Source: a virus. Taken from it: a stretch of 29,034 nt of DNA. Made by a program: the position numbers and the translations under genes. This document shows, piece after piece, positions 8,745 to 21,830 of this stretch; position 1 is the first letter of the stretch, and each line of letters starts with the position of its first letter. The DNA is taken from positions 1 through 29,034 of IMG/VR virus record IMGVR_UViG_3300046006_002742; one strand, 5' to 3'. The notes under the pieces are model-generated. The model did no database searches. It had not been told where the DNA came from and saw nothing but the letters and a program-made list of their open reading frames with translations.

Positions 8745-9851
8745 TTACATTCCAAAATCCTTAAAAATATCAGATTCAATAACTATCTTAGGTCCGTTTA
8801 CAAAACTTGTTCCTGCAAGTAAAAAAGACATATCATAATTTGCTGCAGGCAACGAATCGTTTTTATGTTTAGCAAATGAGATCTTGAAATTATCTTGTAT
8901 GTCTTGTGGTATAACTCGTTCATCAAGATAAACTAAAGTGATATTACGTTCAATACGTTTTTTAAGTAACTCGACCGGAGCAGTCTGTTTACAAGTTGCG
9001 GCAATACCGTTAGCAATTTCTAAAGCACGTTCAGGTAAAAGGTAGATATCGTCAATGAATTTTGTACGATTAACGATTTCATAAATCCGTTCTGCTTTGG
9101 CAGGAGTAACTCTGTAAGTTTTATCTTTTGCTTGCCAAGTCCATACAGGTGGTACCGCGTCTCCAGCGTCTCCAGTAATTACTTTACAGAAAATCATATA
9201 TGCAGGATCTATTTCTTCAACAGGAATAGCGTGCATAGCCTCAGCAATTAAATCCTTGTTGCTACCCATATAAGTAGAAGCATCGAATAAATCATAGCTT
9301 TCAGTAGTAAGCCAATTTTTAAATCCAATAGGAGCAACGATCTTACGGTTTTTAGAATTTGGATTAAAGCAAACTATAAAGTTTTTCTCGTTCATGCGAA
9401 CACATTGAGTTAAATCACCATCACCAGTAATAATAATGCTATCTTCACCTTGTTGAAATAAATGATCCGCCCATAAATGCATAAGATCATCACCTTCAGC
9501 GCGATCTTCACGAGAAACAATAAATCCTTTACGAGATAAGATCTCACCGAACTCATTCATCATTTTATAAAACTGGTCCCAGTTAATTTTGGATTCGTCT
9601 TTAGTACGAGTTCCTTTATAATCACCGTCTTCAATGATTACGTCTTTTCTCCATGATCTTGCGTCAATTGTAAAGATGATCTTGTTTGGATTTCCAAAAT
9701 TACGGATTGCGTGCGACATGTCAGTAGCAACTTTTCTCATAAACATGTCTTGGTCTTTTTTGTCATCAAGCAAACGTTTGCCGCCGCCATAACCACCGAA
9801 GATAAACAGTGTTTTGTAGAAAAAGTAATTTCCGTCGAATATTAAATTCAT
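8745..9851 (-). CDS. rnh: RNase H / 5'-3' exonuclease (T4 Rnh-like, FEN1 family)
   Basis: Removes RNA primers and 5' flaps during lagging-strand synthesis. Acidic metal ligands appear in family order: D6 in FDGNYFF, D63 in FTIDARSWRKD, E119-D121-D122 in AEGDDL, D144 and D146 in ITGDGDLTQ, then the helix-hairpin site TGDAGDAVPP (D228, D231). The conserved basic patch RSWRKD and YKGTR (78-82), which contacts the 5' end, is present. It is 368 residues long, about 60 more than T4 RNase H, with extra length in an acidic insertion around 185-220 and at the C-terminus. A promoter-like block shared with two accessory genes lies just upstream. The product probably works with the gp44/gp62 clamp system encoded nearby. 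Confidence 0.92.
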   Translation of the reverse strand: MNLIFDGNYFFYKTLFIFGGYGGGKRLLDDKKDQDMFMRKVATDMSHAIRNFGNPNKIIFTIDARSWRKDVIIEDGDYKGTRTKDESKINWDQFYKMMNEFGEILSRKGFIVSREDRAEGDDLMHLWADHLFQQGEDSIIITGDGDLTQCVRMNEKNFIVCFNPNSKNRKIVAPIGFKNWLTTESYDLFDASTYMGSNKDLIAEAMHAIPVEEIDPAYMIFCKVITGDAGDAVPPVWTWQAKDKTYRVTPAKAERIYEIVNRTKFIDDIYLLPERALEIANGIAATCKQTAPVELLKKRIERNITLVYLDERVIPQDIQDNFKISFAKHKNDSLPAANYDMSFLLAGTSFVNGPKIVIESDIFKDFGM

Positions 9852-9930: not shown

Positions 9931-10407
9931 TTATTTTAATTGTTTTATTCTTGACCTTAACGCAGCAATTGCAGTTTCAAAATCATTAAACAGTGGAATG
10001 TTAAATCTGTGACAAACGATTTCAACATTGCCTTTACGATAAAACCCATCAGGACAGCAAACAATTAAATTAGCTTCTTCAGCATGTAGTCCTAATTCTA
10101 ATAAAGTAATTGGTGATTTAGACTCTGGCAAGATATTCATAAAGATTATATCAGCATCTTCCAATTTATCCATTTCCCAATTTACTTGACCGTTAAACTC
10201 TGGATTGGTAGCTCTTTGTTCCCATGAAGAATCCCATTCATCTCTTCGAGGATTAAAGAATGTTACTTCACAATCACTAAGTAGTGCTTGAGTTGCAGTT
10301 TGCCAATCGACAGACGAACCCATATCTATGGAACCAGCTAAAAAAATCCCAGGGTAATGTTCCTGGGATTGTTTAGAGCTAGTAGGTTTAATTACTTGGC
10401 TTTTCAT
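9931..10407 (-). CDS. Nucleoside 2-deoxyribosyltransferase-like protein
   Basis: A 158-residue Rossmann-like protein with the family signature: IFLAGSID (21-28) in the first strand, FNPRRDEWD (51-59), WEMDKLEDADIIFMNI (77-92), and SPITLLELGLH (98-108), in which E104 matches the nucleophilic Glu of N-deoxyribosyltransferases. Known members move deoxyribose between bases or hydrolyse nucleotide N-glycosidic bonds. The substrate here cannot be read from sequence. The first 18 residues (Ser, Lys and Gln-rich) precede the fold. The gene begins 3 nt after SPFH and contains a terminator-like hairpin in its 5' part. Its place at the edge of the NAD/ADP-ribose island makes a nucleotide-salvage or signal-degrading role plausible, but that is inference. 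Confidence 0.8.
   Translation of the reverse strand: MKSQVIKPTSSKQSQEHYPGIFLAGSIDMGSSVDWQTATQALLSDCEVTFFNPRRDEWDSSWEQRATNPEFNGQVNWEMDKLEDADIIFMNILPESKSPITLLELGLHAEEANLIVCCPDGFYRKGNVEIVCHRFNIPLFNDFETAIAALRSRIKQLK
10340..10370 (-). terminator. Strong intrinsic-terminator-like hairpin inside the deoxyribosyltransferase gene
   Basis: On the transcribed strand AATCCCAGG pairs perfectly with CCTGGGATT around an 8-nt loop and is followed at once by seven T (part of the last arm). It lies about 12-22 codons into the deoxyribosyltransferase frame, 40-70 nt after the end of the SPFH gene. It therefore looks like the terminator of the NAMPT-SPFH transcript, or an attenuator for the gene that contains it. 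Confidence 0.7.
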
Positions 10408-10410
10408 ATA

Positions 10411-12306
10411 TTACGATTGAGCTGGTTTTTCACCTTTAGCAACTTTTTCAGTTTTCACTGGTTCAGTTACAGCAGGTTTGGTTTTCTCTTGTACTCTGTT
10501 TAACAATTCCATTCCAAGTAATCCAGAGATTGGACCGTTGGCACCATCACCGCCTGAGATTAAAATCTCTGGGATAATTTTGATGTTGTTAATACCGATA
10601 GACTCAACTACCTTTAATTGCCCAAAGTTATCAGCGCCCATTGCTTGTACTTGTTTCTCGTACGCTTCAGCGGTAGCCTTACCGATTGCTTCAATTTTAC
10701 CAGCCTCTGCTTTACCGTTAACATCAGTTTCATATGCAGCAGCCTCGGCGTTTAATTTTTTGGCTTTGGCCTGAGCACCTGCCTTAAGCTCCATAGATTT
10801 AGCTTCACCTTCCGCTTCCTTAACTTTAGTTTGAGCAACACGGTCGGCAATCATAACTGATTGTTCTGCCTTCACGATTTCAGGCTGCATGTCAGCAAGG
10901 GCTCTTGCAGAAGCAAGTTTTTGTTTTTCTTCCTGAGCTTTTTGTTGCACGTTAAAGGTTTCTTGTTCTTCCTGAGCAATCTTACGGTCAGTTAACGTTT
11001 TCATCAATGATTCAGGCGGAGTAATATCTCCAATCAAAGTATCCACGGCATGTACGTTATATTCATCAAGTACCTTAGAGATTGATTCCTTAGCAGCGTT
11101 CTGTCTGTTTTGACGAGTAGTTAAGAAAGCAATAACGTCAGAGTCCTGAGCAGAGTTACGGAAGTAGTTACCAATTGTTGGTTCAAGAACTTGAGATACA
11201 AGATTCTGCATAGAACCGAAACGGGCAATTACCTTTGGTGCCTCAGTTGATGGTATGTGGATAATCTGTGATACGTCAAGATTAAAAGGGAAACCATCTT
11301 TAGATCTTACGGTAATTGTTGATAATCCTTTATCCAAGTTGTGTGATTCAGTTCGAGCATTTGCCCAGTTAAGAACCAAGTTTGTAGTTGGAACCACCTC
11401 AATTTTATGAGTGTACGGATTGATTGCGTATTTACCTGGGTCAAGCGGAGTAATACATACACCTTTTTGTCCTTTCTTAACAATGTTACCGTGTTTAAAT
11501 GTTGCACCGGTTGTATCCTCACCTTCATCACCTACATAAGATATGATAACACCTACATGACCGATAGGAATTTGCGTCATAGCAACTTTTTCAATCTCAA
11601 CCGCCCAAGGGTTAAACGAATAGTTACCAGCTTGTACTACCTGTATCTGCAAACCACGTTGACCACCTGCATCTAAGAATTTATCAAAATCTTGATAGTT
11701 GTTATGTCCTGTTATAACAGAACCAGCGATTGATCCTTGTTCAAGTGGTGTACCGTCAAGCGCTGTAATAATTCCGACAGATCCATCTTCAATATTTGTA
11801 ATGTCAGCAGCAGAGATTTCAAATAAGTGTGTGTTAATACGATAAACTCCGTTATTTAAGTAACCCACCTGTTTACCTCTTTGGCCGCCATTAGTTAAAA
11901 ATTCTCGAGCATTTTGGAAGTTATCAGAATCAACGTGACGAGCTAAGATAGCACCAGTTGGTAGCTGTGCTCCATCTTTTGAAGATAGTAATCCAATTTT
12001 ACCTTTTGGTATAACCGTTAGCGGTGCTTGGTCAATTGCATATTGCCAAGGCCAGTAGAACCAATAAAGACCCGGTGCCAATGTATCTGCTTGATACCCT
12101 GGTTCCCCGTTAAGAGCAATAATCTTACCGTCTGGTAAACTTTTGTTTGCGCCAAACAAGACGAATTTCTTGGTTACTAAACCAATTTTGTCTTCGGGGA
12201 TTATTACCATACCGAAGAATACTCGAAGAGTGAACTTGTAAAAAATTGTTGCTAAGATAGGTAACAAGACCCAGGCATAGCTAAAAAGCGTAGAAACTAA
12301 TTCCAT
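10411..12306 (-). CDS. SPFH/Band 7 (flotillin-like) membrane protein
   Basis: A 631-residue member of the SPFH superfamily. One N-terminal transmembrane helix (about 5-35) is followed by four related repeats (about 35-100, 100-168, 172-245, 246-312). Each contains an IGLV/VGII strand and a late PGLYW/GVYRIN/GNYSFNP/GKYAINP element. Repeats 2 and 3 share the xNFQxARxFLxxGGQRG-type segment. A Band 7 domain (about 330-450) is followed by an Ala/Glu/Lys coiled coil (440-555, many EAEG, KAEA and NAEA units) and a Gly-rich C-terminus. This matches large bacterial flotillin-like proteins that form membrane-associated oligomers, suggesting capture from a host. The gene lies 43 nt downstream of NAMPT, probably on the same transcript. 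Its role in the phage is unknown; organising the infected-cell membrane or modulating host lysis or defence is speculation. Confidence 0.88.
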   Translation of the reverse strand: MELVSTLFSYAWVLLPILATIFYKFTLRVFFGMVIIPEDKIGLVTKKFVLFGANKSLPDGKIIALNGEPGYQADTLAPGLYWFYWPWQYAIDQAPLTVIPKGKIGLLSSKDGAQLPTGAILARHVDSDNFQNAREFLTNGGQRGKQVGYLNNGVYRINTHLFEISAADITNIEDGSVGIITALDGTPLEQGSIAGSVITGHNNYQDFDKFLDAGGQRGLQIQVVQAGNYSFNPWAVEIEKVAMTQIPIGHVGVIISYVGDEGEDTTGATFKHGNIVKKGQKGVCITPLDPGKYAINPYTHKIEVVPTTNLVLNWANARTESHNLDKGLSTITVRSKDGFPFNLDVSQIIHIPSTEAPKVIARFGSMQNLVSQVLEPTIGNYFRNSAQDSDVIAFLTTRQNRQNAAKESISKVLDEYNVHAVDTLIGDITPPESLMKTLTDRKIAQEEQETFNVQQKAQEEKQKLASARALADMQPEIVKAEQSVMIADRVAQTKVKEAEGEAKSMELKAGAQAKAKKLNAEAAAYETDVNGKAEAGKIEAIGKATAEAYEKQVQAMGADNFGQLKVVESIGINNIKIIPEILISGGDGANGPISGLLGMELLNRVQEKTKPAVTEPVKTEKVAKGEKPAQS

Positions 12307-12349: not shown

Positions 12350-13879
12350 TTAGATAGCAGATAATTCGTTAACCTTAGCTCTGATTGCTGTCAAAGTAGT
12401 TTGGTTATGGAAGTTTCCGTTTTCGTATATTGTTTGTAATAAACCAGAGTTCTCTTGAGCATCAGTACATTGTGTTTGTACAACGTATACGCCGTTTGCC
12501 TCAATCACAGCACATTTACCTTTTAATGATTTTTTTGTTCCATCATCAGTTACAGGTTCTTTGTAGATGTTATGAGCATTTCCGTTTTCTTGGAACCAAG
12601 CACCTTTTGCAGCGTACCCAAAGGTATCACGTGTAGTGAATTGGTATGTGAATGAACCTACACCTAATACGATATTAGTTGAAGCAAATCCTTTAGCTTC
12701 CAATCTTGTGTAGATTTCAATTTGACGGTCAAGTGTAATTGAATCTCCATAGATTGCTCCAATGTGAGAGTCTAATACTTTGTAACCTTGAGCATTAATG
12801 GTGCCACCGAATGTTTCCCATAAGCACTCAATTAATCCTTTGGTATAAAACTCTGGATAACCGGCTCTTAATTCTTGTTCGGTTAATTCAGTTCTTCCGT
12901 GCCCACAAAGAATTTCCACTGGATCACCTGAGTCAGGACGAATTACAAGTTTACCTGCGCGGTTCATAATTAAATCTTTTTGGTTGTAGCAGAAACCGCC
13001 TGGACCTGGTTTAGCAACCAAGGTTACATCAAAGGTGTCGGCAACCATTGAGAAGATACCTTCGTTAAAATCCGTTAACCAATCCACCATCATTTGTTCC
13101 TCACCTACAGTAAAGATTTTAGTAGTTGACACAGAGTGCTCAGAAGCATTTACCGAAGCTATGCAAACTTCATCCTCAGATTCATCATAGAAATAACGAG
13201 ATGCTGGAATTACCACGATTGAGTCAGAACCCATAAAAGAAAAGGCATGACCAAGACCAGATGATAAACTATCCCAAGGAGATAATCCACGGGCTGAGAA
13301 ATCATGGCATAAGTAAGGAATTAACCAAGCATTTGCAGGGTCAGTTTTAGTTACCCATTTTACAAGGTTTCTACGATACTGTAATGCAATGGTTGCAGAA
13401 GTAGCTGGTTTCCATGCTAAAGATGAAATGATTGTTTCAAGATACAATGTTAACCAGGCAAAACCAGGCACAGTGTTAATGAAAGTCATATGAGGAATAT
13501 TTGCGTCTGTCTCAATTCCTTCAGGTAAGGCTTTAATTTTAATAGGCAAGTATCCTAAATCATGTAGTGCTTCAAAGTGCGAAGCATCATATGGCATACC
13601 TAAGTATTTTGCCATGTCAGTTCCAAATTTGGTTGCAGTTTCTTTTGGCATGTCAAAGAAATTCTCTTGCCATTCAGCGTGTAACCAACGAACAGTTAAT
13701 TGATGACCAATAGAAAGAATTTTGTTAATTCCTTTTGGCGCATGTTTTGTACTTCTTGGGATCCAAGTTCCGTATAAGAAATCCGTGCCTGGAGCAAGCA
13801 TTCTTTTATGCCCAACTTTATATCCATCAGAATAATAAGGAGCAGGGGCTCTAAACGATTTTTGTAACTTAGTTATCAT
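12350..13879 (-). CDS. nadV: Nicotinamide phosphoribosyltransferase-like enzyme (NAMPT/NadV family)
   Basis: Joins nicotinamide to a phosphoribosyl donor in NAD+ salvage. The 509 residues show the family landmarks: YYSDGYKVGH (15-24), HDFSARG (192-198), NASEHS with H249 aligning to the phosphorylated His247 of human NAMPT, VADTFDV (D281), IRPDSGDP (313-320) and YGDS (377-380). The loop corresponding to human GSGGGLLQ reads GVGSFTYQ (406-413), so two of the glycines that contact the donor phosphate are replaced by Ser and Phe. Other features look intact. The gene is preceded by a 59-bp element also found before the PRPP-synthetase-like gene, implying co-regulation. It may act as a classical NAMPT. 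Alternatively it may be the nicotinamide ADP-ribosyl transferase of a NARP1-type pathway, which shares this fold. Sequence reading cannot decide. Confidence 0.93.
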   Translation of the reverse strand: MITKLQKSFRAPAPYYSDGYKVGHKRMLAPGTDFLYGTWIPRSTKHAPKGINKILSIGHQLTVRWLHAEWQENFFDMPKETATKFGTDMAKYLGMPYDASHFEALHDLGYLPIKIKALPEGIETDANIPHMTFINTVPGFAWLTLYLETIISSLAWKPATSATIALQYRRNLVKWVTKTDPANAWLIPYLCHDFSARGLSPWDSLSSGLGHAFSFMGSDSIVVIPASRYFYDESEDEVCIASVNASEHSVSTTKIFTVGEEQMMVDWLTDFNEGIFSMVADTFDVTLVAKPGPGGFCYNQKDLIMNRAGKLVIRPDSGDPVEILCGHGRTELTEQELRAGYPEFYTKGLIECLWETFGGTINAQGYKVLDSHIGAIYGDSITLDRQIEIYTRLEAKGFASTNIVLGVGSFTYQFTTRDTFGYAAKGAWFQENGNAHNIYKEPVTDDGTKKSLKGKCAVIEANGVYVVQTQCTDAQENSGLLQTIYENGNFHNQTTLTAIRAKVNELSAI

Positions 13880-13907
13880 AATTTATATTTGTTTTTAATT
13901 ATAGAGC

Positions 13908-13966
13908 AAATTTAACCAAAATAAAGAAGCAAAGCAAATATTTTGGTAAAAAGTTATTAACAATTA
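13908..13966 (-). repeat. 59-bp intergenic element, copy A (upstream of NAMPT)
   Basis: It aligns without gaps to 16284-16342, with 50 of 59 identical bases by my count. It spans from the stop codon of the NADAR gene into the NAMPT leader. The best-conserved parts are AAAGAAGCAAAGCAAAT (13923-13939) and AAGTTATTAACAATTA (13951-13966). In this copy a perfect 9-bp inverted repeat, ACCAAAATA/TATTTTGGT (13915-13923 and 13939-13947), brackets the central block. On the transcribed strand TAAATTTG at 13915-13908 fits the Bacteroidota TAnnTTTG element. It is probably a promoter/operator. Confidence 0.7.
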
Positions 13967-14437
13967 TATAAGTTCTTGTTTAACTATTGTAATTGCTTGG
14001 CCTAAAAGATTAAGTCCTTTCCAACACATAGGGTGCTCGACATTAGGATCGTCTTCAGCCATACCGATACCCCAGATATTATCAAGTGGTGATGCCTCAA
14101 CCATGATTCGTTTACCTGTAAGTAATAGCGCAGCTTTAAGATCACTGTTTTGAGAAAACTTAAAGTAGTTTCCTTTAATTACAATACCTAAGGAAACTTT
14201 ATCCCAAACACTTTTGTCAAAGTTTCTAATCATACGGCCGTATTTCTTTTGCTCTCTTGGATTAGTTTCTTCCATTATAAGTTTAGCAATTTCCGTGTCA
14301 CCAAACGTTAAGGCTTTTTGGTGCATCATATATTGTTCACATGAATTGTAAGTGATACCGTCAATAGTCATATTTGCTTTATGCCATTGAGAGTAAATAC
14401 CATTCCAGAAGAATACATATTTATTTGTAGTTTTCAT
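13964..14437 (-). CDS. NADAR-domain protein (YbiA/DUF1768 family)
   Basis: A 157-residue single-domain protein with the NADAR signature: FFWNGIYSQWHKA (9-21), SCEQYMMHQKALTFGD (32-47, containing the conserved Glu E34), VEASPLDNIWGIGM (113-126) and WKGLNLLGQAI (139-149). Members are N-glycosidases acting on riboflavin intermediates or ADP-ribose derivatives. Some remove ADP-ribose from guanine in DNA and oppose DarT-type toxins. The gene ends a tightly coupled run behind the prs-like and macrodomain genes, starting 1 nt after a 62-codon gene. Together with the macrodomain protein this suggests ADP-ribose removal or recycling. The precise substrate is inferred from context only. Confidence 0.88.
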   Translation of the reverse strand: MKTTNKYVFFWNGIYSQWHKANMTIDGITYNSCEQYMMHQKALTFGDTEIAKLIMEETNPREQKKYGRMIRNFDKSVWDKVSLGIVIKGNYFKFSQNSDLKAALLLTGKRIMVEASPLDNIWGIGMAEDDPNVEHPMCWKGLNLLGQAITIVKQELI

Positions 14438-14438
14438 T

Positions 14439-14627
14439 TTAGTTTTGTGGTTTACGTTCTTTTAATAATAGTTGTTTAGCTCGTTCAAATAAAGTATCAA
14501 AATATTCTCCGAATTTTTCATCAGCAACTACTTTATCAAAAAAATCATTGAAGCACAGAGGCTCTGTAGTTTCTGATACGTAAATGGTGTATGCTCTTTC
14601 AAATATTAATTCTCCTTGAGGACCCAT
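14439..14627 (-). CDS. Small unknown protein in the ADP-ribose operon
   Basis: A 62-residue protein, acidic in the middle with a basic C-terminus, probably two or three helices (FNDFFDKVVADEKFGEYFD, then FERAKQLLLKERK). No family is recognised. The start codon overlaps the macrodomain stop (TAATG) and the next gene follows after 1 nt, so it is translated as part of the operon. The tight packing supports a real gene. It could be an adaptor for its enzyme neighbours, but nothing in the sequence shows this. Confidence 0.7.
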   Translation of the reverse strand: MGPQGELIFERAYTIYVSETTEPLCFNDFFDKVVADEKFGEYFDTLFERAKQLLLKERKPQN

Positions 14628-15349
14628 TATTGTGGTAAGATTACGATTGTTACTTTACAATCAATTAATTCTGTTTGAATAATTTTTTTAATTCTGTCCC
14701 AATCTCCGCCAGCAAGACCAGCGCCAATTTTAGGAAGACCAATATGTTTACCTTTAAAGGCTACATTCATCTTTCTCATGCACATTGTGATTGCTTCATA
14801 ATCCACAGGTTTGGCAACACCGTCTTTATGATTAGCACCGTAGTTATATTGTGTATAAGCATTCACAACGATTAAATCTTTAACATCAGGTTGACCTGGT
14901 GATTTTGAGTTCATTGGAATGGCGAGGCCGTCTTCTTTAACGTATGGATGTTTAAACCATAGATACATATGTTGATAATCAATGTTACCAAGTTTATTGA
15001 TGTCACCGCGGTTTTTAGTTTTTACCACATATTCATTCCCATGATCATCGTACTCTGGATATTCAGTTATTTCTAAGTTAAACTGATTTGCACCAAATTC
15101 TCTTGCCATGTGTGGAGCAATTCCTGCGCCCATTGTGCAAAAGCAATTACAACCGTGAGCAATAACATCAAACTCACCTTGCTTTGCTAACGTAATAAGA
15201 TTACCTGTAACCTCAGAGTATCTTGCTTTTAATTTTGCTTCCGCAGCTAAGTCAGTAAATGGAGATTCTTGACACATGTCTTCTTTGCAAATACCAGTGC
15301 AAGGGCCATGTTCACAATACCAACAGTGGAGTCCAATACCTATTCCCAT
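14627..15349 (-). CDS. Macrodomain protein with Cys-rich N-terminus (ADP-ribose binding/hydrolysis)
   Basis: Residues 45-240 form a macrodomain: VTGNLI (47-52), HGCNCFCTMGAGIA (65-78) as the first ADP-ribose loop, a mid-region ending VVNAYTQYNYG (161-171), and GLPKIGAGLAGGDWDRI (204-220) as the phosphate loop. Such domains bind ADP-ribose and many remove it from protein or DNA, or process ADP-ribose-1''-phosphate. The DarG/TARG1-type Lys expected in an MGKG loop is Ala here (TMGAG), so catalysis may differ. The first 26 residues hold five cysteines (9, 12, 17, 21, 26) in a pattern that could bind a metal. The start overlaps the prs-like stop as TAATG, indicating coupled translation. The N-terminal extension is unusual for the family. 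Confidence 0.88.
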   Translation of the reverse strand: MGIGIGLHCWYCEHGPCTGICKEDMCQESPFTDLAAEAKLKARYSEVTGNLITLAKQGEFDVIAHGCNCFCTMGAGIAPHMAREFGANQFNLEITEYPEYDDHGNEYVVKTKNRGDINKLGNIDYQHMYLWFKHPYVKEDGLAIPMNSKSPGQPDVKDLIVVNAYTQYNYGANHKDGVAKPVDYEAITMCMRKMNVAFKGKHIGLPKIGAGLAGGDWDRIKKIIQTELIDCKVTIVILPQ

Positions 15350-16263
15350 TAGAATACGTTATAAACGTTAAGTTTATGTAATTCATTATCGTTTTGGATT
15401 GAGAACTCTGGATCATTCTCAGGACGGATTGAATTAGTTGTATAGATACCGTCAAAAAGTTTATTTAATTCCTTTAGACCGCTTGAAAAGATACCGTGTG
15501 TGATTACTAATGTTATAGTATCATTTGTTTGTGCCTGTGGTCTAACTGTACGAATTGCTTTTGCTAATTCTATAAAGGTTCTTCCACCATCACAGATATC
15601 ATCAACGATTAGAAAATGTTTAGCAACATTTTGTGTAGATAAGCCAGGTACGTCAGTATGAGTGATTTTTCCTGTTTTGATATCTCTGTGTTTAGATGCA
15701 ACAACGATATCTTCAATACCAAATTGTTCAGCAACATCATAGATCTTTTTCAGAGCACCAGCATCAGGAGAGACAAGAGTAACTTGTTTACATTTTTCTT
15801 TAAATGTAATTGCTGCAGATGAGCTCTTAACGATTGCGTGACTAACCAAAACATGATTAGAAGTTTTCTTGTAGTTATTTAAACATGCCTCAAGAACATC
15901 GGAATGAGGATCCAATACATGCACCTCAGTAAAATTCTGAGCATTAATAATTGGGCAGATTACTGTCTTAAGATAATTAGAAGCTCCTTCTAGAAATTTT
16001 CTATCTGATCTTGCACCTAAGAAGTACGGAACATATAAGTAAACTTGTTTTGCACCCATTTCAAGCAAGGCTTGGTTTGCGCAAATGATTAATTCTAAAT
16101 CACGAAACGAGTTTAATCTTGATTTGATTTCTACGTTTTTGATTTTAGTACTGAACGAATAGCCTTTAGGTTCAATCGTAATAGATTGTTGACCGTCAGG
16201 AAAATTTGAGATTTTAAAATCGATGTCAGATTTCTCAGGATCTGCTAAATTAAGTATGTTCAT
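15349..16263 (-). CDS. prs: Ribose-phosphate pyrophosphokinase-like enzyme (Prs family)
   Basis: A 304-residue PRPP-synthetase homologue of near-normal length (bacterial Prs is about 315). Visible motifs are FPDGQ (21-25), YFLGARSDRK (80-89) for ATP, DPHSD (118-122), SPDAGALKK (165-173), KHRD of the catalytic flexible loop (191-194) and the PRPP-type loop VDDICDGGRT (220-229). Canonical Prs makes PRPP from ribose-5-phosphate and ATP, the donor needed by NAMPT. In the phage NARP1 pathway a homologue of this family instead pyrophosphorylates ADP-ribose. The gene heads a coupled operon with macrodomain, small unknown and NADAR genes. Its leader carries the same element as NAMPT. Substrate choice cannot be told from motifs alone. 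Confidence 0.93.
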   Translation of the reverse strand: MNILNLADPEKSDIDFKISNFPDGQQSITIEPKGYSFSTKIKNVEIKSRLNSFRDLELIICANQALLEMGAKQVYLYVPYFLGARSDRKFLEGASNYLKTVICPIINAQNFTEVHVLDPHSDVLEACLNNYKKTSNHVLVSHAIVKSSSAAITFKEKCKQVTLVSPDAGALKKIYDVAEQFGIEDIVVASKHRDIKTGKITHTDVPGLSTQNVAKHFLIVDDICDGGRTFIELAKAIRTVRPQAQTNDTITLVITHGIFSSGLKELNKLFDGIYTTNSIRPENDPEFSIQNDNELHKLNVYNVF

Positions 16264-16283
16264 ATAGTTTTTATTTGATAGTT

Positions 16284-16342
16284 AAAATTAACCAATATAA
16301 AGAAGCAAAGCAAATTTAATTCCAAGAAGTTATTAACAATTA
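16284..16342 (-). repeat. 59-bp intergenic element, copy B (upstream of prs)
   Basis: Ungapped partner of 13908-13966, again beginning at the stop codon of the upstream gene and ending in the leader of a NAD-metabolism gene. On the transcribed strand it contains TAAATTTG (complement of 16311-16318), matching TAnnTTTG. It then has the conserved TTTGCTTTGCTTCTTTA tract and ATTGGTTAATTTT, about 20 nt before the ATG. Because the stop codon TAA lies within the duplicated unit, the copy arose by duplication or both copies are kept by selection. Confidence 0.7.
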
Positions 16343-16627
16343 GTAATTTTCACTTCCTTCAAGATCCGTTGGCGGTTCAGTTGGTTTGATTGGCATTTCT
16401 TCAATCATTTTAACAATAGTCTCACCAGCAAGTTTAATGCCATGTTCTGTGCCTTTTCTATACGCATTGTAATTTGTAATAGCAACACCTATGATTATCA
16501 TAAACATTCCAATAGCATGCCAAGGTCTTTCACACTTAAAAGTAAATGGTGAAAAAGTAATTGTTGTATTTGCTAACCAAAAGAAGCAAATAACAGTTAA
16601 GATTATTGTAAAGATCATATATTTCAT
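16340..16627 (-). CDS. Small two-helix membrane protein, unknown
   Basis: A 95-residue protein with two hydrophobic segments (about 3-25 and 39-57) separated by a short loop with Lys, Glu and Arg. A polar C-terminal tail ends in Pro/Glu/Thr-rich sequence (KPTEPPTDLEGSE). No family is recognised. It follows an 81-codon gene by 2 nt and is the last gene before the prs promoter element. Small inner-membrane proteins are common among phage accessory genes (exclusion, lysis control), but no such role can be assigned. Confidence 0.7.
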   Translation of the reverse strand: MKYMIFTIILTVICFFWLANTTITFSPFTFKCERPWHAIGMFMIIIGVAITNYNAYRKGTEHGIKLAGETIVKMIEEMPIKPTEPPTDLEGSENY

Positions 16628-20618: not shown

Positions 20619-21336
20619 ACTTCTTTTGCGCCGTTAATGCCTTAGTGGAATCTTTATTATTAAGTTCACTCCTGTTTAATATCTCCATTCTTGACTTTGC
20701 ATAAAGCTGATACACATAAGCAACTGCTTTACCTGCTAATTCACGCGGAACAAAATACGGAACCATCTCAAAATCTTCAACTTCAATTAAGACTGGGTTT
20801 TTAATTTGTGTGATATCATAATTTCTTACAGCAAAAGCTAATCCAATCTTAGAATTTTTATCAAAGTTACTAGCCATAAAAAACCAATTAGTAACCAACT
20901 TATTAATTACTTTCATAGAAGCTAGTCTATCATCGTCACTCATTTCATCTGCAATCTTGTATGCGTCTCCAAAGATTCGGTAAGCTGTATCTATAAACTG
21001 TGCTTTTGCTTTCTCTGGAAGGAAATTAAGGTTCACACCTTGAACTATGTGCATGCCTGATGATGGTGATATAAACTCTCCTATAATATAAACCATAGGA
21101 CGTTTATCATAAAAATCTAATACATCGGCACCGTGCGGCATATACTGATATGTATAAATTCGGCCGGGCATAAAAAATTTAAGTTGTCTTGCCTTAAATC
21201 TTTCAGTTTGCTCAATGATCCAATAGTTTGTAAAAGGTTCTTTAAAGTACTTATCATTAAAGTATTGAAAAGATTCCTTGCGCAGCTGTTCTTTATCTTG
21301 AGCATCATCATAACGCTCCATGAATGTCTTTTTCAT
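20599..21336 (-). CDS. Unknown probable virion or head-tail assembly protein
   Basis: A 245-residue protein with N-terminal charged helices. The core PGRIYTYQYMPHGADVLDFYDKRPMVYIIGEF (57-88) is followed by GVNLNFLPEKAKAQFID (100-116), helices, and a short basic tail. The pattern of a YxY-xP-x(n)-YDxxPMV strand followed by GxNLxFLP recalls a conserved T4-like phage family, which I think has been labelled DNA end protector gp2 in some genomes. I am not sure of that name. In T4, gene 2 is next to gene 4, and here it overlaps gp4 by 4 nt (ATGA), which fits. Treat the function as unassigned. Confidence 0.55.
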   Translation of the reverse strand: MKKTFMERYDDAQDKEQLRKESFQYFNDKYFKEPFTNYWIIEQTERFKARQLKFFMPGRIYTYQYMPHGADVLDFYDKRPMVYIIGEFISPSSGMHIVQGVNLNFLPEKAKAQFIDTAYRIFGDAYKIADEMSDDDRLASMKVINKLVTNWFFMASNFDKNSKIGLAFAVRNYDITQIKNPVLIEVEDFEMVPYFVPRELAGKAVAYVYQLYAKSRMEILNRSELNNKDSTKALTAQKKYKTPGG

Positions 21337-21830
21337 CGTGGTACTGCTTTAAATAAGAAATCTTCAGTTACGATGATAAATTTATAACCGATGGACTCAG
21401 CATGTATTTTTGCTGCTGAAAATTTTGCTGTGTTAATGATAAAAGTTTTAGCCGCATAGTTAAAACTTTTAAGTTTACTTGTAGTCTGTATGCCTTCATA
21501 CACAGGGCGGAGTAAAGAAGCAGCTGGTTTAACTTCAACTAAATAGTCTTGTTCAACTTCGTCTTTAACTGCTCTCATATAAAAGTCTATATAATAATCA
21601 TGAGTCTTTCCATCTATAGGACTAACATATTTAATAGGGAATGGTTCTGATGACCATTTTAATACGTTAGTAGAATCATCACAATACCTACAAAACTTAT
21701 ATTCCCATGAGGAGCGATAGATGATCTTTGTGGGATCACCTATATACTTCTCTGGGTTATTTAGTGTGTAATAGCCTTGGCGGAATTTGCTTTTAGCTGT
21801 AGGCTTGTTTGATTTTATATCAGATGCCAT
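21333..21830 (-). CDS. 4: Head completion protein (T4 gp4-like, TnsA-type nuclease fold)
   Basis: The 165-residue protein matches the gp4 (gp50/65) family. NPEKYIGDPTKIIYRSSWEYKF (25-46) corresponds to the NPxKYxGDxxKIxYRSSWE motif, followed by VLKWSSEPFPIKYVSPIDGKTHDYYIDF (57-83) and YLVEVKP (96-102). The acidic residues E43, D82, E99 and K101 fit an E...D...ExK nuclease centre of the TnsA/PD-(D/E)XK type. In T4 the product is needed to finish packaged heads. The gene overlaps the sigma-factor gene upstream by 11 nt and its downstream partner by 4 nt. Confidence 0.85.
   Translation of the reverse strand: MASDIKSNKPTAKSKFRQGYYTLNNPEKYIGDPTKIIYRSSWEYKFCRYCDDSTNVLKWSSEPFPIKYVSPIDGKTHDYYIDFYMRAVKDEVEQDYLVEVKPAASLLRPVYEGIQTTSKLKSFNYAAKTFIINTAKFSAAKIHAESIGYKFIIVTEDFLFKAVPR

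Follow-up and report, generated by a model that had tools for sequence, protein, structure and literature searches.

The window analysed here is the entire virus record IMGVR_UViG_3300046006_002742 of IMG/VR, 29,034 bases long, and it holds an island of genes that appear to be concerned with NAD+ and ADP-ribose. Five open reading frames (ORFs), all on the minus strand, encode in transcription order a Prs-like protein, a macrodomain protein, a short protein termed orf62, a NADAR protein and a NAMPT-like protein. Single-base overlaps (TAATG) join the first gene to the second and the second to the third, a gap of 1 nucleotide (nt) separates orf62 from the NADAR gene, and 84 nt separate the latter from the NAMPT-like gene; the five-gene run is thus present just as a preliminary description, made from the sequence alone, had reported it. 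T4-like phage markers surround the island, namely a T4-type terminase, a gp15-like tail sheath stabiliser, a portal and a clamp loader; the flanking genes also include an SMC-like protein and a metallophosphoesterase that together resemble the gp46/47 pair of T4. The five genes, with the assignments argued for below and their basis, are:

15349..16263, minus strand: predicted Adps-type (Prs-family) kinase (phrog_619, motifs, TIGR01251 score, tree)
14627..15349, minus strand: predicted macrodomain of the TARG1/DarG structural class (phrog_335, AlphaFold model, Foldseek)
14439..14627, minus strand: orf62 (no family match)
13964..14437, minus strand: NADAR, YbiA-type (PF08719, catalytic E/K/E)
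12350..13879, minus strand: predicted Namat-type nicotinamide ADP-ribose transferase (signature, clamp residues, PDB match, clade)

The NAMPT-like protein matches the NAPRTase family (PF04095, 4e-30) and phrog_448 (2e-149). The published mark of Namat is a helix motif, GS-X-Phi-X-Phi-X-Phi-TRD, with aromatics that stack on adenine (PMC12774641). The window protein reads GSFTYQFTTRD at this site, equal to the published selectivity-clamp signature, with both F410 and F414 in place and Thr, not Asn/Val, at the Phi3 position. Its adenine clamp comprises F410, F414, T416 and D418; S195 and S409 are also as in Namat, and all nicotinamide and ribose contacts of the Namat of phage SPbetaL1 are conserved in the alignment. 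In three Nampts, those of Klebsiella phage KP15, Vibrio phage ValKK3 and Xanthomonas, Gly replaces both serines (S195, S409), and the two aromatic sites are occupied by G/A and E/Q/K. Canonical Nampts read GGALLQ or GGGLLQ at the motif site, and this GG-[AG]-LLQ motif is not present in the aligned window protein. For the SCL stacking residue, which in Namat is Arg, or Lys/Tyr with the stacking residue next to it, the window protein shows K45 followed by H46 in a loop whose alignment is uncertain. The best PDB matches by sequence, the crystal structures 9w5w and 9w5x, both represent SPbetaL1 Namat, to which the window protein is 41.5% identical. The tree recovers a Namat clade of 45 rows (SH-aLRT 100) that unites the SPbetaL1, Bas62, Staphylococcus and window proteins, and the KP15, ValKK3 and Xanthomonas (Xcc) Nampts fall outside it. 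Because clamp signature, contact residues, PDB match and clade agree, we assign the protein, on sequence grounds, to the Namat type and not to the NAMPTs that use phosphoribosyl pyrophosphate (PRPP).

The Prs-like protein, which matches PF00156 (5e-9) and phrog_619 (1e-67), obtains 87.8 bits with the canonical Prs model TIGR01251, under the cut-off of 113 and within the span of known Adps relatives; the corresponding values are 106 for SPbetaL1 Adps, 75 and 118 for the Staphylococcus and Bas62 homologues, and 423 for E. coli Prs. The motifs DPHS-D-V, SPDAGA and DDICDGGRTF are common to the window protein and its relatives encoded next to Namat, and are not shared by E. coli Prs, whose loops read DLHA and TGGT where the window protein and Namat-linked relatives have PHS-D-V and GGRT-type loops; the second loop is GGT in the SPbetaL1 and Staphylococcus Adps relatives. 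Canonical Prs proteins form a separate clade in the tree (support 99). The window protein has an identity of 29% with SPbetaL1 Adps, and with the Bas62 Adps homologue the value is 35%. At the fetched loci a prs gene lies within 5 kb of 30 of 42 Namats, as against none of four canonical Nampts, and among the 12 Namats lacking such a neighbour several are terminal on their contigs, and for others the distance to the gene is 5-10 kb. We regard the protein as Adps-type, predicted to convert ADP-ribose to ADP-ribose pyrophosphate. The phylogenetic check proposed in the preliminary description has set the NAMPT-like protein with characterised Namat, apart from Nampt, and the Prs-like protein apart from canonical Prs, with Adps-type motifs and Namat linkage. 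The Namat signature and clade, together with the Adps-type Prs, make synthesis from ADP-ribose far more likely than salvage through PRPP, which strengthens the NARP-type reading already offered there.

The NADAR protein is readily recognised by PF08719 (2e-49; 168 bits against a cut-off of 35), and its E34, K41 and E114 fall on the catalytic E/K/E positions, which the hydrolysis of guanine-ADP-ribose requires (PMC11543638). A loss of the third catalytic acid, for which the last strand (ITIVK) was considered, was ruled out when alignment with E. coli YbiA located the conserved E114. At the acidic position the protein has Glu, like YbiA, rather than the Asp of DarT1-linked NADARs or the His of phage gp30.3. 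We predict an N-glycosidase that frees ADP-ribose. Tested NADARs were active on guanine-ADP-ribose and inactive on thymine-ADP-ribose, and of four types only the DarT1-linked and enteropathogenic E. coli NADARs rescued DarT1 toxicity in vivo, the phage NADAR failing to do so (PMC11125620). DarT1-NADAR toxin-antitoxin systems are marked by an adjacent DarT gene and a catalytic Asp in the NADAR; no ART/DarT family was detected among the scanned ORFs of the window, and its NADAR has no such Asp. Soluble ADP-ribose derivatives are equally good candidates as DarT adducts for the substrate of NADAR and macrodomain.

The macrodomain lies just under the Pfam cut-off (20.3 versus 22 bits) and matches phrog_335 at 3e-42. 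Its AlphaFold model (pLDDT 85.5) has the macrodomain fold, and the top Foldseek matches were TARG1, BT1257 (a Bacteroides macrodomain), DarG and Poa1p, the first three within ranks 1-8 at TM scores, normalised by target, of 0.60-0.74. In the alignment of relatives H65-GCN, G76/A78 and K119 are invariant. We predict an ADP-ribosyl hydrolase of the TARG1/DarG class, in which K119 is at most a candidate for the catalytic Lys. Residues 1-40 form a Cys-rich N-terminal extension (CWYCEHGPCTGICKEDMC) that is found in a few relatives only, has low model confidence and is possibly a metal site. The adjoining orf62 had no match in family searches and has relatives in two near-identical contigs only. Two viral loci (L002 and L005) are devoid of it, yet the neighbours of its place remain coupled; it is a lineage-specific accessory.

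A search of viral records with NADAR alone gave 30 loci with 25 distinct NADARs, and the contigs compared ranged from 4 to 434 kb. Within 10 kb of these 25 NADARs, counting one strand, we found Namat in 19 cases, prs in 16, a macrodomain in 18 and an NDT-like gene, described below, in 16; all four core genes were this close to 14 of them, in at least 5 different gene orders. In L066 and L041 the macrodomain gene lies between adps and namat and is joined to them by short overlaps. More distant viral NADARs have no link to Namat.

Comparable associations exist in cellular genomes. A scan of bacterial genomes for NADAR gave 14 loci, of which four, in Maribacter, Aquimarina, a Tenacibaculum metagenome-assembled genome and Clostridium, have Adps and Namat-signature genes nearby:

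L162, 7264-11264: cluster of NrtR-type regulator, Adps, Namat and NADAR genes
L161, 6927-16968: cluster with the same genes
L155, 3408-12452: cluster with the same genes
L153, 6370-10531: cluster with the same genes

A Nudix regulator lies upstream in all four clusters; Pfam recognises the NrtR winged helix in three, and the fourth regulator, that of Tenacibaculum (L155:3408-4097), is NrtR-type by sequence likeness only. Pfam also identifies ADP-ribosylglycohydrolase, KptA and phosphoesterase genes in the Aquimarina cluster, which the Tenacibaculum cluster, as read from its sequence, resembles in gene content, and macrodomains occur in some of the clusters as well. Related clusters are found in the chromosomes of marine bacteria. 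Among 200 Flavobacteriaceae species genomes, 11 carry NADAR and 16 carry Namat, the two occurring together in 8 (Fisher p = 3.4e-8, or 3.1e-7 after removal of the genome used as centre, in statistics that ignore relatedness). Adps-type matches (E <1e-33) occur in exactly the 16 Namat genomes, that in G076 being partial, and the gene is present there besides the housekeeping Prs. Four genomes have the NADAR and Adps genes 29-164 bp apart; the distance is larger in G075 (about 0.5 kb) and G152 (3.3 kb). These clusters likely constitute a cellular ADP-ribose recycling regulon, whose NrtR-type regulator probably senses ADP-ribose. The Namats of Maribacter and Aquimarina emerge basally to the phage group that includes the window (support 98-100), which makes an exchange, in either direction, likely between phages and bacteria of these kinds. 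The phage set looks like a pared-down version of the Flavobacteriaceae/Clostridium cellular cluster. The coupling of salvage genes to ADP-ribose-releasing hydrolases, which the preliminary description had proposed from a single locus, hence gains contextual support from many phages and from bacterial chromosomes.

The duplicated element that had been noted before the prs and NAMPT-like genes was also recovered, in two copies:

16284..16342, minus strand: 59-bp element upstream of adps, promoter-like TTTG-N20-TAATTTTA
13908..13966, minus strand: 59-bp element upstream of namat, promoter-like TTTG-N20-TAAATTTG

The copies are 85% identical, and their core was found 0 times in 100 shuffles. Each contains TTTG-N20-TAnnTTT[GA], 51 nt before adps and 59 nt before namat, a pattern that resembles the Bacteroidota promoter consensus. 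Only one other of the 26 genes tested, an exonuclease gene starting at 9851, has it upstream, and over the whole window the strict pattern is not enriched (2 found versus 1.9 expected). The element is not specific to the island, since a 103-kb relative has similar cores at other places too. The position of the copies before genes is suggestive of promoters and, because both are promoter-like, the island probably comprises two transcription units.

While the five genes of the preliminary description stand, the island extends further than it had recognised, through coupled SPFH and NDT-like genes (12306-9931) that it had overlooked. The additional genes are:

10411..12306, minus strand: SPFH/band-7 protein, between the Namat and NDT-like genes (PF01145, 1e-28)
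9931..10407, minus strand: NDT-like glycosidase (PF15891, 2e-32)
16340..16627, minus strand: orf95, a small membrane protein lying upstream

The NDT-like gene belongs to the island because it is near 16 of the 25 distinct NADARs, overlaps the Namat gene by 14 nt in L005, where the SPFH gene is absent, has a putative nucleophile (E104) that is invariant across the 20 relatives and encodes a glycosidase-like fold, with matches to 4mcj (a putative deoxyribosyltransferase) and to the nucleotide glycosidases MilB and DNPH1. The SPFH/band-7 (flotillin-like) gene, near 8 of the 25, is an optional member. Relatives of orf95 directly adjoin the macrodomain gene in other phages (L007:9278-9586; L107, L114); the data suggest that orf95 belongs to the island as well. 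Two further families recur in its vicinity, a Thg1-like tRNA-His guanylyltransferase within 10 kb in 8 contigs (L107:1689-2537 and relatives) and a family annotated DUF1937/DUF4406 in 7 contigs (L112:3159-3728 and relatives). Elsewhere in the window, 21333-21830 is a phage gene with a TnsA-like endonuclease N-terminal domain (PF08722, 2e-16).

The reading that we favour, with a probability of about 0.6, is that the island is an expanded NARP1 of a T4-like phage, a single pathway fed by the macrodomain and NADAR. Host NADase defences would split NAD+ into nicotinamide and ADP-ribose, some ADP-ribose being also held in adducts or signals; the macrodomain and NADAR would free ADP-ribose from adducts or soluble derivatives; the Adps-type enzyme would pyrophosphorylate it using ATP; and Namat would couple the product to nicotinamide, regenerating NAD+ in two steps without nicotinamide mononucleotide (NMN). 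The last two steps, assigned because of diagnostic residues, phylogeny and gene linkage, make up the NARP1 core (ADP-ribose and nicotinamide to NAD+), whose presence we consider highly probable. Fold and catalytic residues, along with a linkage that is strongly conserved, suggest the hydrolytic step and its coupling to Adps, and the feeding of the pathway is further supported by a precedent inside a NARP1 operon, where RyDEP supplies ADP-ribose in vitro (2026 preprint, PMC13232231). Since the Adps/Namat route needs no NMN, a missing NMN adenylyltransferase is no obstacle, and the need for such an enzyme, raised in the preliminary description, falls away. No NMN adenylyltransferase family was detected among the scanned window ORFs, and the close relatives of 103 kb and 106 kb, whose records may be incomplete, gave no CTP_transf_like match; in larger relatives the CTP_transf_like matches were one 155-aa protein and long frames (337-687 aa), and those inspected are unlike NadM or NadR.

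Several observations weigh against a single pathway. Members of the macrodomain family adjoin canonical Nampt without Adps in L078 and L096, so the family is not tied to NARP1, and NADAR occurs in many phages far from NARP1, for example Staphylococcus phage JA1. Within the window three genes separate Adps from Namat, whose expression the second promoter-like element could make independent of the rest. Nucleic-acid adducts may yield too little ADP-ribose to matter for NAD+, and the sampled phages and bacteria are related, so that the counts are not independent.

Counter-defence genes generally cluster in phages, which is one argument for two separate counter-defences lying side by side, NARP1 restoring NAD+ and the macrodomain and NADAR erasing the ADP-ribose that DarT-like toxins put on phage DNA or RNA, with a common location but no common metabolites. 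This possibility, which we hold to be rather unlikely, agrees with the nearest folds of the macrodomain, TARG1 and DarG, known to remove thymine-ADP-ribose, and with the removal of guanine-ADP-ribose by NADARs (PMC11125620, PMC11543638). However, plain clustering leaves the chromosomal NADAR-Adps adjacency and NADAR-Namat co-occurrence unexplained, and the scanned window ORFs include no DarT. Ordinary salvage of the NARP2 kind, in which Prs would make PRPP, NAMPT would make NMN and a host enzyme would complete NAD+, could draw on the generic Prs/NAMPT annotations of both proteins and on the residual PRPP activity that Namat retains in vitro (PMC12774641), but it is contradicted by the Namat-specific residues and clade, the Adps-type motifs and the negative searches for an NMN adenylyltransferase and CTP_transf_like proteins described above. 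Residues, phylogeny and linkage together led us to reject PRPP salvage of the canonical kind, and we give this scheme very little credence. The slimmest chance is that functionally unlinked genes merely share the inherited synteny of one phage lineage: the closest relatives do keep the same order and T4-like neighbours, but gene order varies among contigs, the portals of the tested records are 48-93% identical to that of the window, very distant or not detected, so that identity drops as low as 48-52% where a portal is matched, and the linkage recurs in Flavobacteriaceae and Clostridium chromosomes.

Under the favoured expanded NARP1, the substrates need not be adducts. Tentatively, NADAR and the macrodomain might be anti-signalling enzymes that hydrolyse ADP-ribose-based signals of the Thoeris type, NADAR acting on N-glycosidic ones such as variants of cyclic ADP-ribose (cADPR) or His-ADPR, with the freed ADP-ribose passing to NAD+ via Adps and Namat. 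The phage would then turn an alarm molecule into the lost cofactor, and the cellular clusters with NrtR-type regulators would be a bacterial counterpart with a general role in recycling ADP-ribose.

The island resembles several known systems. It shares with NARP1 of Bacillus phage SPbetaL1 and Bas63 the Namat signature and contact residues and an Adps-type Prs relative, but known NARP1 is a two-gene operon, whereas here a macrodomain, orf62 and NADAR lie in between, along with a second promoter-like element. In the NARP1 operon of mycobacteriophage DyoEdafos an ADP-ribose-releasing hydrolase is likewise inserted and its product feeds Adps; however, that enzyme, RyDEP, is a RyR-domain O-glycosidase for 2'/3'cADPR, in place of the predicted macrodomain and NADAR hydrolases of the window, and the preprint names neither NADAR nor macrodomain (PMC13232231). 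The phage NADAR-NadV/NadM neighbourhoods of Iyer et al. 2022 (PMC9503650) similarly place NADAR beside NAD+ salvage genes, but include an NMN adenylyltransferase, implying a PRPP/NMN route, and were described when Adps/Namat were not yet known. These precedents, RyDEP included, mean that the combination of salvage and eraser enzymes, presented as novel in the preliminary description, is not in itself new. The ARG-centred host systems with Nudix (NrtR-like) regulators in Iyer et al. 2022 are matched by L155 and L161 in ADP-ribosylglycohydrolase, phosphoesterase, NADAR and NrtR-type regulator, and by L155 alone in macrodomains too; Adps and Namat are present in both clusters as well, but go unmentioned in the section of that paper on these systems. 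DarT-NADAR and DarT-DarG toxin-antitoxin pairs share the NADAR family and the DarG-like macrodomain fold, but differ in having DarT, and the window NADAR carries the YbiA-type Glu (E114), not the DarT1-linked Asp. What is new is the assignment of the salvage pair in such neighbourhoods to Adps/Namat, and the recurrent Adps-macro-NADAR-Namat-NDT set with its chromosomal counterpart under an NrtR-type regulator, a set of which no description was found in searches of an open-access library with incomplete coverage. Such a larger module, common to large phages and to Flavobacteriaceae and Clostridium chromosomes, would make NARP1 the end of an ADP-ribose recycling route with NADAR and macrodomains, families widespread in phages, upstream, and the Flavobacteriaceae/Clostridium clusters would be its cellular relative and perhaps its source.

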